From NCBI GenBank assembly GCA_003280245.1, contig QCFN01000009.1:1-47343 (forward strand): DNA of 47,343 nucleotides. The letters run 5' to 3'. The first letter of the stretch is position 1. Each line of letters begins with the position of its first letter. Positions 5,841 through 47,343 of the stretch are shown here, piece after piece. The DNA is from Prochlorococcus sp. AG-363-J23. Its GTDB lineage: Bacteria; Cyanobacteriota; Cyanobacteriia; PCC-6307; Cyanobiaceae. Both the position numbers and the translations under genes were made by a program. A model generated the notes under the pieces. The model ran no database searches. It was not told the DNA's origin and saw nothing but the letters and a program-made list of their open reading frames with translations.

Positions 5841-5892
5841 ATAGTTAACTATTTACAGGGATTTAGAAAAAGACAAGGAATATCTATTATCA

Positions 5893-6129
5893 CTAGATCT
5901 TTGAAAGGTTAATACCAAGTGATTTTGCATAAGGACCAAGTCCTTTCTTTTGAATTGTTTTGAGAGCTCTAGTAGTTACTCTTAGGTTTACCCATTTTTT
6001 GCCTTCAGACCACCATAGTCTTCGCTGCTGAAGATTCGCCTGCTGAAGCTTTTTTGTCCTGATATGGGAATGACTTACGGCCATCCCGTTGTTTGCTCTG
6101 GTGCCTGTGAGTTGGCAAACTCTTGACAT
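5893..6129 (-). CDS. rpmB: 50S ribosomal protein L28
   Basis: Large-subunit ribosomal protein L28, 78 aa, the normal bacterial length. It begins [20 protein letters not shown] and continues with SHIRTKK, the hallmark N-terminal block (CxxTGK-like, then SHSxxRTKR). It is rich in Lys and Arg and contains [16 protein letters not shown]. Only one of the zinc-type cysteines is kept, as in cysteine-poor L28 forms. It sits 53 bases downstream of htpG on the same strand, with a purine-rich AGAGG before the ATG, so read-through from htpG is possible. Confidence 0.96.
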
Positions 6130-6182
6130 TGAAATGCCTCTTATTCTTTTTCCTATAAGTAAATCATATCAAATTCAGGTGA

Positions 6183-8090: not shown

Positions 8091-8171
8091 GGAAATTAAT
8101 TAATCAATTAAACTATATTATTAAATCTTCGAGGCCTCAAGCCCGTGAGTGGTGAGTTCTCCGTACCTCTA

Positions 8172-8399
8172 TTAGGTTGGAGTTTTTTGCAGCTCACTAC
8201 GCTCATCATTTATAACTGCTCCTTCAACAGGACATACCTGTAAACAGATCCCGCAATCTATGCATGTGGAAAAGTCAATCCAATAAAAGTCTGTACCTTT
8301 TTTATTTTTTCCATTCCCTGGCTTAATACAAGCTACAGGGCAGGCATTCACGCAATCACTTACACCTTCACAGATTTCTGAAACTATAGTATGTGGCAT
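8172..8399 (-). CDS. Dicluster bacterial-type ferredoxin (2[4Fe-4S])
   Basis: Small soluble electron carrier, 75 aa, with eight cysteines: Cys10, 16, 20 and 24 in a CEGVSDCVNACPVAC block, and Cys46, 49, 52 and 56 in a classical CIDCGICLQVCP block. The two CP cysteines should cross over, as in Clostridium- and PsaC-like ferredoxins. A linker of about 20 residues rich in Lys and Gly separates the motifs. The first motif has an unusual C-x5-C spacing, so one cluster could be 3Fe-4S or unusual. It lies 24 bases downstream of hisZ and 81 bases upstream of htpG, all on the minus strand. The partner enzyme is unknown; it is not the plant-type PetF ferredoxin. Confidence 0.88.
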   Translation of the reverse strand: MPHTIVSEICEGVSDCVNACPVACIKPGNGKNKKGTDFYWIDFSTCIDCGICLQVCPVEGAVINDERSELQKTPT

Positions 8400-8423
8400 C
8401 GGTCTTTTCTGATATAGAATTGT

Positions 8424-42671: not shown

Positions 42672-42733
42672 CGCAACTTTTTCTAAAAGCGTTCATTATT
42701 AATTCTAAGATAAAGGAAATTTGTTAAGCCTTG

Positions 42734-45700
42734 ATGGCATTCAATGTTCAGGAAAGCTTAGAAAGCTCTGAATTCCTAAGTCAGCTCTATGGAGAAGATT
42801 CGTCAATTCTTCTTTTCGATGGAGCAACAGGAACATCTCTTCAGCAGGCTAACCTCACTGCTGAGGATTTTGGAGGATTGAAATTAGAAGGATGTAATGA
42901 GAATCTTGTTCGAACTAGACCTGATGTAGTCAGAGAAGTTCATAAGTCATTTTTAGAAGCAGGTTGCGATGTCATTGAAACAAATACTTTTGGGGCGACA
43001 TCGATAGTACTGGGAGAATATGGATTAGAGCAATATTCTCGTGAGATCAATTATAAGGCCGCAGAAATTGCAAAACAAATAGCAATAGAATTCTCTACTA
43101 AAGAACAAAGAAGATATGTTGCTGGTTCAATTGGCCCTACAACAAAACTCCCAACATTAGGACATATCGAATTTGATATTCTTAAAGATGCTTATAAGGA
43201 ACAAGTTATAGGCTTGATTGATGGCGGTGTAGATCTTATAACATTAGAGACTTGTCAGGATGTCCTTCAGATTAAATCTGCATTGCAGGGGATAGAAGAA
43301 GGTTTCATAGGATCAAATAAAAGAGTACCAATTATGGTTTCTGTTACAATGGAGACTACTGGTACTATGTTAGTTGGAACAGATATTTCTACTGTAGTAA
43401 CAATTCTTGAGCCATTCCCTATAGATATTTTGGGTATTAATTGCGCCACAGGTCCACAAGAAATGAGAAGTCATATAAAATATTTATCTGATAATTCGCC
43501 TTTTGCAATTAGTTGTATTCCTAATGCAGGATTACCAGAAAATGTAGGTGGTGTGGCTCACTATAAACTAACTCCCATTGAGTTGAAGATGGAGATAATG
43601 CATTTTGTAGAAGACCTGGGAGTCCAAATTATCGGAGGTTGTTGTGGGACAACTCCTGACCATATTAAGTCCTTAAGTGAAATAAAAAATTGCTTAAAAC
43701 CATCAAAAAGGATTATAAGAAATTCAAAGAATAAGCAACCAAGATCGAAGCTTAATTATGAACCTAGTGCTTCTTCAATTTATAGTTTAGTCCCTTATAA
43801 ACAAGATAATTCATTCCTTATTGTTGGAGAGAGATTAAATGCAAGTGGATCTAAAAAAGCTAGAGAACTACTAATGGAAGAGAATTGGGATGGCTTAATT
43901 TCATTGGCTAAAGATCAGCTTAGAGAAAACTCTCATATCCTAGATATTAATGTTGATTATGTTGGTAGGGATGGAAATCGCGATATGAAGGAATTGGTAA
44001 GACAATTGGTAACCAATGTCAATCTTCCTTTAATGCTTGATTCAACTGACTGGCAAAAGATGGAAAGTGGACTTAAGGTTTCAGGAGGTAAATCAATACT
44101 TAATTCAACTAATTTTGAAGACGGTGAAGAACGTTTCTTTAAAGTATTGCAAATAGCTAAACAATATGGAGCTGCAGTAGTTATTGGTACAATTGATGAG
44201 GATGGAATGGCTAGAACTGCAGAAAAGAAATTGCAGATAGCTGAGAGAGCGTACAAAAATGCTTTAGATTTTGGGTTCCCCCCATATGAGCTATTTTACG
44301 ATCCCCTAGCATTACCAATTTCAACTGGTTTGGAGGAAGACCGCAGAAATGGTTTGGAGACAATTAAGGCAATAAAATTAATAAGGGAAAACTTAAATGA
44401 TGTGCATATTATTCTTGGTGTCTCTAATATTAGCTTTGGATTATCGCCAGCAGCTAGAATCTCACTAAATTCAGTCTTTCTTCATGACTGTTGTGAAGCT
44501 GGACTGGATGCTGCAATTGTTTCACCTTCTAAAATACTCCCATTAGTTAAAATTTCAGATAATCATAAGAATGTTTGCCGCGATTTAATTTTTGATAATA
44601 GAAGATTTGATAACAATAATTGTACTTATGATCCATTAACAGAATTAACTTCAATATTTATTGGTGTTACAGCTAAGGAGGCTCGTAGCTCTATAGATTT
44701 AGCTGACTTACCTGTTGAAAAAAGGTTAGAGAAACATATAATTGATGGAGAAAGAATTAACCTTGAGAAATCATTAGAGGAGGCTTTAAATGATTATACG
44801 CCATTAGATATAATCAATAAATTTTTATTAGCAGGGATGAAAGTTGTAGGAGAACTATTTGGTTCAGGTCAAATGCAACTACCATTTGTTCTGCAGTCGG
44901 CTCAAACTATGAAATCTGCCGTCTCCTTCTTAGAACCTTATTTAGAATCATCAGATCAAGATAACGCATCAAAGGGAAAATTTCTTATAGCTACAGTTAA
45001 AGGGGATGTTCATGATATTGGCAAGAATCTTGTAGATATTATTTTGTCTAATAACGGCTATGAAGTAATCAACCTTGGAATTAAACAAGATGTAGAAAAT
45101 ATAATTAACGCACAAAAGGAGATTAATGCGGATTGTATAGCTATGAGTGGGCTTCTCGTTAAATCTACAGCCTTTATGAAAGAGAATTTGGAATTATTTA
45201 ATAAGGCTAGGATTTCAGTGCCAGTTATATTAGGTGGTGCAGCATTAACACCTAAGTTCGTTACTAATGATTGTGCAAAAGTTTATAATGGAGTTGTTGT
45301 TTATGGTAAAGACGCATTTGCAGATCTTCGATTTATGGATGCTTATATGGAAGCAAAAAAAACGGAAGAGTGGAATGATAACAGAGGTTTCTCCTTTCCC
45401 TGTCCCGATGGACTGGTTTTAGGTAATAAATCTCTTTCATCTATAAATATTTCGTCTGAGTTAGATAAATCAACTAATAAAGATCAAATCTTAACTCGGG
45501 AATTTCAAAATAATAGAGAAGCTATAAGCACAAATCGCTCAACTTCCATTATCGAGGAGGCATCAATTACACCTCCTTTCATTGGTTCTAAGTGTTTATA
45601 CTCCAAGGATATTCCTATTGAGGAAATTATTTATTACTTAGATAAAAATGCATTATTCTCTGGCCAATGGCAAATGAGGAAAAATAAAGGACAGTCCAAG

Positions 45701-46366
45701 GAACAATATCTTGAATTCCTAGAAAAAGAAGCTCAACCTATATTAGAAAAAATAATTGATCAAAGTGTTAATGAATCTCTATTATCCCCATCAGTTGTTT
45801 ACGGCTATTTTAATTGCGGTAGGAAGGAAAATTCCTTAATTATCTTTGCCGAAGATTGTCTACATGAACTTGGTGAATTTGAATTTCCTCGTCAAAAATC
45901 AGGAAGGAATTTATGTATAGCTGATTTTTATAGAGATTTACTTGATAATTCCCCTAAAGATGTTCTTCCAATGCAGGCTGTTACTGTAGGGGAGGAGGCC
46001 ACTAAATTTGCGCAAAAATTATATGATAATAATGAATACACTGATTATTTATATTTTCATGGATTTGCTGTTCAAATGACAGAAGCTTTGGCTGAGTGGA
46101 TTCATGCAAGAATAAGAAAAGAGTGCGGATTTAGTCACTTAGAACCTAAGAATTCTAGAGATATTTTGGCAAGTAAATATAGAGGAAGTAGGTATTCATT
46201 TGGTTATCCAGCCTGTCCAAATGTATCTGACTCTAAGTATCAATTAGAGTGGTTAGATGCTGATCGAGTAGGTATTAATATGGATAGCGCAGATCAACTG
46301 ATTCCTGAACAAAGTACTACTGCAATTGTTGCTTTACATAGCAAGGCTTGTTACTTTAGTGCATAA
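42734..46366 (+). CDS. metH: Cobalamin-dependent methionine synthase
   Basis: Transfers methyl from 5-methyl-THF to homocysteine through methylcobalamin. 1210 aa, full length, from ATG 42734 (a TTG at 42731 is in frame). Domains in order: homocysteine-binding (about 20-330, with zinc Cys in [11 protein letters not shown] and [10 protein letters not shown]), pterin-binding (about 355-620, [12 protein letters not shown] and [15 protein letters not shown]), the B12 cap and Rossmann domains (about 665-900) with the cobalt-ligand His in [16 protein letters not shown] (about 755-770), and the AdoMet-binding reactivation domain (about 950-1200) with [14 protein letters not shown] and [12 protein letters not shown]. 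cobN is close by on the other strand. Confidence 0.97.
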
Positions 46367-46402: not shown

Positions 46403-46427
46403 AATAAATTGGTTTTTCCAATTTATT
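46403..46427. terminator. Bidirectional terminator candidate after metH
   Basis: AATAAATTGG (46403-46412) and CCAATTTATT (46418-46427) form a perfect 10-bp stem around a five-T loop, in the 99-base gap between convergent metH and the small acidic gene. A TTTTTTT run follows at about 46441-46449. Low G+C makes the stem weak. It is placed where both transcripts should end. Confidence 0.45.
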
Positions 46428-46465
46428 CGCTGGCAATTATTCTTTTTTTAGGCCAATAAAAATTG

Positions 46466-46696
46466 TCAGTCTATGCATAGACTCTGCATTGTTTCTATAA
46501 CTTCCTGTTGAAATTCGTCGAGGGTATCAGAATCGCTCAGGTCAATTCCTTCGCCTGCTGCGTTTTGTGTGAGCTCCTGAAAATGGAAAGCACCCTCTCC
46601 ATTAGCAAGAAACTCGATTGCAGATGTCTCACCACTCTCTCGGAAGGCGTCGCAGAGGGCAAGGAAGGCTGCGTCTTCAGTGAACTCCCAATCCAT
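46466..46696 (-). CDS. Small acidic protein of unknown function
   Basis: I do not recognise a family. 76 aa, with 19 Asp/Glu and only one Arg and no Lys, so strongly acidic. Two aromatic- and Ala-rich helices seem likely (FTEDAAFLALCDAFRESG, LDEFQQEVIETMQSLCID) around a Gly-rich middle. No signal or membrane segment. By my count the gene is about 48% G+C, well above its neighbours, and codons ending in C or G are frequent. No clear Shine-Dalgarno site precedes the ATG. The coding call rests on a continuous frame, the biased composition and a plausible upstream promoter. An opposite-strand frame covers the same place but has a less protein-like content. Confidence 0.6.
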   Translation of the reverse strand: MDWEFTEDAAFLALCDAFRESGETSAIEFLANGEGAFHFQELTQNAAGEGIDLSDSDTLDEFQQEVIETMQSLCID

Positions 46697-46719
46697 TGAA
46701 GGGACATAACTGAATGACC

Positions 46720-46748
46720 TTTAACGCCTTCCCCCCTGCATCCGTCAA
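46720..46748 (-). promoter_or_regulatory. Possible promoter of the small acidic gene
   Basis: On the minus strand TTGACG (46743-46748) is followed after 17 bases by GTTAAA (46720-46725). The -35 is 5 of 6 to consensus, the -10 only 3 of 6. Initiation near 46713 would give a leader of about 17 bases. Confidence 0.3.
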
Positions 46749-46798
46749 CCGCATAAGTGAAAACTGTGGCACTTTTAAGTACTTTATTTGTTTAATAC

Positions 46799-46838
46799 CC
46801 ATTGGTATATCTGCTGTAAACACCTGATATACCAATGG
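46799..46838 (+). repeat. Perfect 13-bp stem-loop with trailing T5
   Basis: CCATTGGTATATC (46799-46811) and GATATACCAATGG (46826-46838) are exact reverse complements around a 14-base loop. TTTTT follows at 46839-46843 on the plus strand. It may be a terminator for a plus-strand transcript or a protein-binding palindrome. The long loop is not typical of an intrinsic terminator. Confidence 0.5.
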
Positions 46839-46989
46839 TTTTTGGTGGTACAGCGCTCTTTTTTGTAATGTCAGGATAATTTGATCAATGAATGTGTAGT
46901 GATGTTGGAAATCATTCCCTTACCCTTGTGAATTGCCAAAACGAATATTTCTGTCATAGGCCCCAGATTTCACTATAGGTAGAAAATTA

Positions 46990-47062
46990 GGCTTATTTGG
47001 CCCCTTAAGGCTTATTACGGTCTAAATGGTCTTCCATTTAGCTTCAGCGCGCTTGAGGGGCT
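46990..47062 (+). ncRNA. Nested hairpin: candidate structured RNA
   Basis: An outer stem pairs GCCCCTTAAG (47000-47009) with CTTGAGGGGC (47052-47061), ten pairs with one G-U. Inside it an inner hairpin pairs CTAAATGG (47022-47029) with CCATTTAG (47034-47041) over a TCTT tetraloop. The word GGCTTATT occurs twice, at 46990-46997 and 47009-47016. No gene covers it. The boundaries and strand of any transcript are unknown; I could not match it to 6S, tmRNA, SRP or RNase P RNA. Confidence 0.4.
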
Positions 47063-47245
47063 TACAGGTGCCTTTAGTAGCTCCGACCCGAGGCTATGGG
47101 CCAGGACTATTCCAGACTATTCAGATGTCATTCTGGGGAATATACGGAATCACAGTTTGAATTGATTTAGTTACAAATTAAGCTCTATCTAAGACTATTA
47201 ATTACTTTTAATTAATTTAGATCTTAGTTGTTTTATTTTGTTTTG

Positions 47246-47279
47246 TAATCAGCCATTATAAACGACCTGTCGCTGATTA
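47246..47279. repeat. 8-bp inverted repeat in AT-rich end region
   Basis: TAATCAGC (47246-47253) and GCTGATTA (47272-47279) are perfect reverse complements 18 bases apart. It could be an operator or hairpin upstream of a gene beyond the window edge. Only position and symmetry support this. Confidence 0.3.
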
Positions 47280-47343
47280 ACAAACCATGATAAATTAATT
47301 CCGATCTCCTTTTAATTTGATTATGAGATCATATAGTCTATGG

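Follow-up and report, generated by a model that had tools for sequence, protein, structure and literature searches.

Small RNAs of the Yfr1/Yfr10 type carry a common 11-nt motif. They are short intergenic RNAs with hairpins, and the Yfr10 members differ among themselves in sequence and position, as far as the accessible part of their description goes (PMC6778093). Long intergenic hairpin RNAs also include 6S RNA (RF00013) and the bacterial small SRP RNA (RF00169). The available portions of two papers on the non-coding RNAs of Prochlorococcus name no methionine synthase, adenylyltransferase or neighbouring phosphorylase gene (PMC2518516, PMC7368042). Likewise, nothing on the spacer treated here appeared in the covered parts of the literature on DUF2237 and on Prochlorococcus metH or intergenic sRNAs, that is, in openly available main texts.

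The locus lies at the right end of a 47,343-nt stretch (the window) from the low-light, Prochlorococcus-like ocean bacterium Prochlorococcus sp. AG-363-J23, whose relatives are Prochlorococcus single-cell genomes. The window spans contig C9 from end to end; the assembly to which it belongs has 55 contigs, totals 1,314,955 bases and is 69% complete. Here, a nested hairpin stands in a long stretch that lacks genes (Table 1). We read this region, with a probability of about 0.7, as an ordinary divergent promoter spacer that would serve a 76-aa protein gene leftward and apa rightward, and that carries hairpins private to this genome.

Table 1. Features at the right end of the window (strand as +, - or unassigned, given by a point)
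Feature	Position	Strand	Remarks
metH, cobalamin-dependent methionine synthase	42731..46366	+	identified by five MetH domains in Pfam; converges on the 76-aa gene
76-aa protein gene	46466..46696	-	conserved in picocyanobacteria
divergent intergenic spacer, 626 nt	46697..47322	.	between the 76-aa gene and apa
upstream region of the 76-aa gene, conserved	46697..46772	-	alignments with relatives
GTTAAA in the upstream region	46720-46725	-	
G-tract in the upstream region	46731-46736	-	
GGTTGACG, -35-like, in the upstream region	46743-46750	-	
GTGNCACA in the upstream region	46765-46772	-	
hairpin, 13 contiguous pairs CCATTGGTATATC/GATATACCAATGG	46794..46843	.	z -2.29
nested hairpin	47000..47061	+	outer stem 47000-47009/47052-47061, inner hairpin 47022-47041
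G+C-rich patch peak	47028..47107	.	0.59 per 80 nt vs spacer interior mean 0.37
long imperfect A+T-rich hairpin directly 5' of the apa start	47199..47323	+	z -4.66
apa (Ap4A phosphorylase), first seven codons MRSYSLW	47323..47343	+	cut by contig end

An earlier, sequence-only reading had described roughly 600 bases without a gene, which is correct except for the last 21 bases (ATG AGA TCA TAT AGT CTA TGG), the apparent start of apa. The start position is supported by these seven codons only; the W at residue 7 recurs in several apa N-termini of relatives, e.g., VKNEVLW and LTTELLW. In these relatives apa was assigned by PF19327 and PF09830, and its start codons were taken from the ORF listing or, for loci L015 and L018, from a tblastn-like position. 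The next gene past the spacer is apa, divergent from the 76-aa gene, in 21 relatives, and the order metH, 76-aa gene, spacer and apa is found in 20 low-light relatives with a gap of 308-699 nt; an additional locus (L023) has the same order, its contig ending within apa. The window repeats the order seen in the relatives, with apa beginning at its right edge and diverging from the 76-aa gene. Another contig of this genome (G000:C40:8-619) carries apa from about residue 76 onward, with the match starting at base 8; this fragment is ~53% identical to the query from G001, which belongs to the same genus and is the nearest genome. Because C9 ends in MRSYSLW and C40 begins inside apa, a short assembly gap within apa most likely separates the two contigs, and this would set the spacer at 46697-47322.

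Two other long gaps of the window's ORF list, 8091-8423 and 5841-6182, look by eye like minus-strand small genes (a ferredoxin-like and an L28-like protein) and are not gene-less because of these apparent genes inside them. Between the convergent metH and 76-aa genes lies a perfect 10-pair inverted repeat (46403-46427), which together with T/A runs in 46403-46452 probably forms the terminators of both genes.

The 76-aa protein had no match in Pfam and NCBIfam searches. It is 80-95% identical among the loci compared here (the best 80 of 207), across which the neighbouring apa is near 50% identical, and about 53-65% identical in high-light Prochlorococcus. It was considered as the hyperconserved protein PSHCP and rejected, PSHCP being described in the accessible part of its report as 62 aa long and free of Cys (PMC4215834). 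Similarity to relatives extends from the 76-aa gene to 46771-46791 and not beyond. We compared 155 upstream regions, 109 of them distinct and about half of them listed; among those listed, the core of GGTTGACG and G-tract also occurs in Synechococcus, Cyanobium and high-light Prochlorococcus. The gene is preceded by GGTTGACG, five to six consecutive G and a box resembling (G)TTAAA in genomes that range from freshwater Cyanobium to high-light Prochlorococcus, and GTGNCACA stands farther upstream in many of them. A G-tract within the promoter spacer of the 76-aa gene is odd. As judged from these alignments, 46697-46772 is the predicted promoter or leader of the 76-aa gene and lies mostly outside the hairpin region.

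Re-reading the letters placed both stems of the nested hairpin exactly where they had been reported. The outer stem consists of GCCCCTTAAG paired with CTTGAGGGGC in 10 contiguous pairs, one of which is a U.G wobble on the + strand and an A.C mismatch on the - strand, and the inner hairpin is CTAAATGG-TCTT-CCATTTAG with 8 perfect pairs. The two-fold repeat noticed earlier, GGCTTATT, is likewise present, at 46990 and 47009. When 46697-47343 was shuffled 1000 times with its dinucleotides preserved, a comparable nest appeared twice, so that the observed nest is rarer than chance. None of 10 shuffles of the whole window contained one, and the actual 47 kb contains a single instance; the criterion (an outer stem of 10 pairs including no more than one GU, an 8-pair inner stem, a span of about 70) is post hoc because it was derived from the observed case. 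The 72-nt fold reaches -30.5 kcal/mol (z -4.66, in a hand-picked window), and the result is less extreme when the region is scanned for energy, 9 of 200 locally shuffled controls attaining the same value. Since one outer pair is a GU pair, the hairpin folds better on the + than on the - strand (-30.5 vs -24.5 kcal/mol in 80-nt windows). The whole 559-nt stretch also folds better than its shuffles (z -3.55, 0 of 100), and this and the rarity of the nest count against an ordinary spacer. An intrinsic terminator was not found at 47000-47061 by terminator scan and sequence, a T-run directly 3' of the stem being absent. The hairpin at 46794-46843 is followed by TTTTT on the + strand and is terminator-like there but for its 14-nt loop; the terminator scan, restricted to loops of 3-8, listed nothing at this place.

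The suggestion of an RNA that is maintained for the structure of its stems was not supported. Searches with a covariance model of the nested hairpin gave no match in the spacers of 28 related loci (best E = 4, outside the spacer), no second match in this genome, and none in 119 other genomes of the family under strict filters. Apart from tRNA, no Rfam family exceeded the gathering cut-off in the window or occurred in 18 related loci, and a permissive search of the region gave sub-cut-off matches only (best E 0.6), none of riboswitch type. Nothing aligned beyond 46791 in a DNA search of 197 genomes, its own included, except the window itself and four short matches, all within unrelated genes or A+T-rich sequence. 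Pairwise comparison of the spacer interiors of 21 relatives, covering pairs whose first locus has a number under 30 and pieces that begin past 110 nt, revealed no common sequence, nor did 22 spacers share a k-mer above shuffled controls. Syntenic spacers also fold near shuffled expectation (22 spacers, 278 windows; mean z -0.30 on + and -0.26 on -), and individual ones, e.g., that of L024, carry strong hairpins of their own. Among the genomes searched, the nested hairpin and the spacer sequence thus appear private to this genome by sequence comparison, and since the hairpin occurs in none of the relatives searched, the evidence for a conserved RNA is poor.

Other origins were considered and rejected. 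A six-frame comparison of 22 spacers for a small protein gene gave chance-level pairs only (best E 0.001 among 948 listed pairs, in A+T-rich segments). For a phage or viral origin, 46772-47343 had no match in the phage collection; the inner-hairpin pattern matched one viral contig, inside an apparent coding sequence and unrelated. The segment 47170-47247 resembles antisense pieces of the alanine racemase gene (alr) of one relative, and a remnant of this gene was rejected because an intact alr lies at G000:C10:43953-45086 and because the same A+T-rich stretch weakly matches unrelated genes of other relatives.

As other candidates, the sequence-only reading had named a small RNA and a long leader belonging to a gene past the edge. 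The positional part of the latter stands, as the edge holds the start of apa, which is read in the direction leading out of the spacer, with the stems apparently 5' of it. A long structured 5' leader, in which transcription would start at 46990 or to its left and the stems would regulate translation or termination of apa, accords with the shared strand of stems and gene, with the better fold on that strand, and with the hairpin at 47199-47323, which would include the apa start. However, a comparable hairpin directly 5' of apa is clear in L021, weaker in L016 and near zero in most other relatives, and Rfam returned no riboswitch-type match, which together leave such a leader quite improbable. 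In an ordinary divergent spacer, the right part would carry whatever drives apa, as its position suggests.

The history of the slot offers a further view of the spacer. Among the best 80 of 207 loci, 54, from Synechococcus and Cyanobium, hold a DUF2237 gene (PF09996) in this slot, always divergent and starting 111-247 nt from the 76-aa gene, and all 30 high-light Prochlorococcus loci examined have the gene there, between the 76-aa gene and apa. It is missing from the other 26 of the 80, of which 24 bear the title Prochlorococcus or that of a similar uncultured picocyanobacterium; the remaining two are L033 (titled uncultured cyanobacterium) and L022. The latter (PBDY01000004.1) bears the title of a gammaproteobacterial MAG and carries a picocyanobacterial metH and a 76-aa gene at 89% identity, and because of these two genes the contig is probably misbinned. 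Since other lineages have DUF2237 there, the spacer occupies a slot that holds a gene elsewhere. This genome has an intact DUF2237 gene at another place (G000:C11:14873-15223), as have several low-light relatives. In a tree of 40 DUF2237 proteins, the high-light slot copies separate from the low-light ones, and the deep order is not settled; we therefore infer, rather than demonstrate, that the gene was lost from the slot and not gained. High-light strains are usually placed inside low-light Prochlorococcus, and because of this nesting the pattern would require repeated relocation or return.

A decayed copy of DUF2237 would fit the slot and its size, and tblastn puts residues 24-52 and 64-71 at their expected positions in the window spacer, give or take a few bases (E 0.82 and 20). 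We nevertheless hold it to be very unlikely: a profile of 108 proteins scored no spacer above its own shuffles on the expected strand (-0.7 bits for the window spacer, with 6 of 50 shuffles equally good), and decay leaves the raised G+C unexplained.

The length and composition of the spacer require a separate account. In this lineage, which is considered streamlined, the spacers of the 21 relatives measure 308-699 nt (median 609). Of 21 spacers, 12 have an interior G+C peak above shuffled expectation (p < 0.05), located 237-495 nt from the start of the 76-aa gene, vs 3 of 17 controls; the excess (Fisher p 0.02 with the window, 0.04 without it) refers to mononucleotide shuffles, to controls taken from 17 spacers downstream of apa and to relatives that are not independent. 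One spacer (L025) was left out because it is too short. Kept length and recurrent patch also count against an ordinary spacer and fit a fast-evolving non-coding element, so they are suggestive of room for something conserved in place rather than in sequence. One such candidate, which we regard as doubtful, is an undescribed element, RNA or DNA, that low-light Prochlorococcus would keep in the vacated DUF2237 slot, with place, size and raised G+C held and sequence and folds almost free; the nested hairpin would be this genome's version. Also unlikely in our view is a fast-evolving, position-conserved ncRNA of low-light Prochlorococcus between the 76-aa gene and apa that here includes the nested hairpin. 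The patch, the kept length and the stability of the nested stem speak for it, but the G+C-richest 120-nt windows of 22 spacers fold with mean z values of only -0.48 (+) and -0.25 (-), no common k-mer emerged, the hairpin model found no match, and neither strand of the window spacer contains the Yfr1/Yfr10 motif, even when as many as 2 mismatches are allowed.

Altogether, we favour the ordinary divergent spacer, whose parts we read as follows. The left ~75 nt form the promoter or leader of the 76-aa gene, as their conservation shows. In the low-light lineage, synteny shows that DUF2237 no longer occupies the slot and sits elsewhere; its loss would have left a gene-less spacer. The nested hairpin and its two neighbours would then be lineage-specific inverted repeats in non-coding DNA, and they may lightly affect transcription, for instance if the hairpin at 46794-46843 and its T-run end + strand read-through. 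A nested hairpin can thus be striking, stand in a stretch without genes and still be a one-off, and a leader of something beyond the edge gives way to a named neighbourhood of 76-aa gene, spacer and apa. Should the G+C-rich patch turn out to be transcribed, it would exemplify an RNA that holds its position and not its sequence, of a kind missed by homology-based RNA searches.

When set against the described systems, the window spacer resembles the Yfr1/Yfr10 RNAs in its intergenic hairpin and differs in having neither their motif nor their Rfam match. It likewise matches neither 6S nor SRP RNA, and both were rejected as the content of the slot because they are found elsewhere in most relatives (26 and 27 of the 30 genomes searched, respectively); neither was found in the incomplete assemblies of G000 and G001. 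The nearest counterpart is the picocyanobacterial divergent spacer between the 76-aa gene and apa, with which the locus shares its gene order, whereas the sequence and the hairpins of the window's spacer differ.
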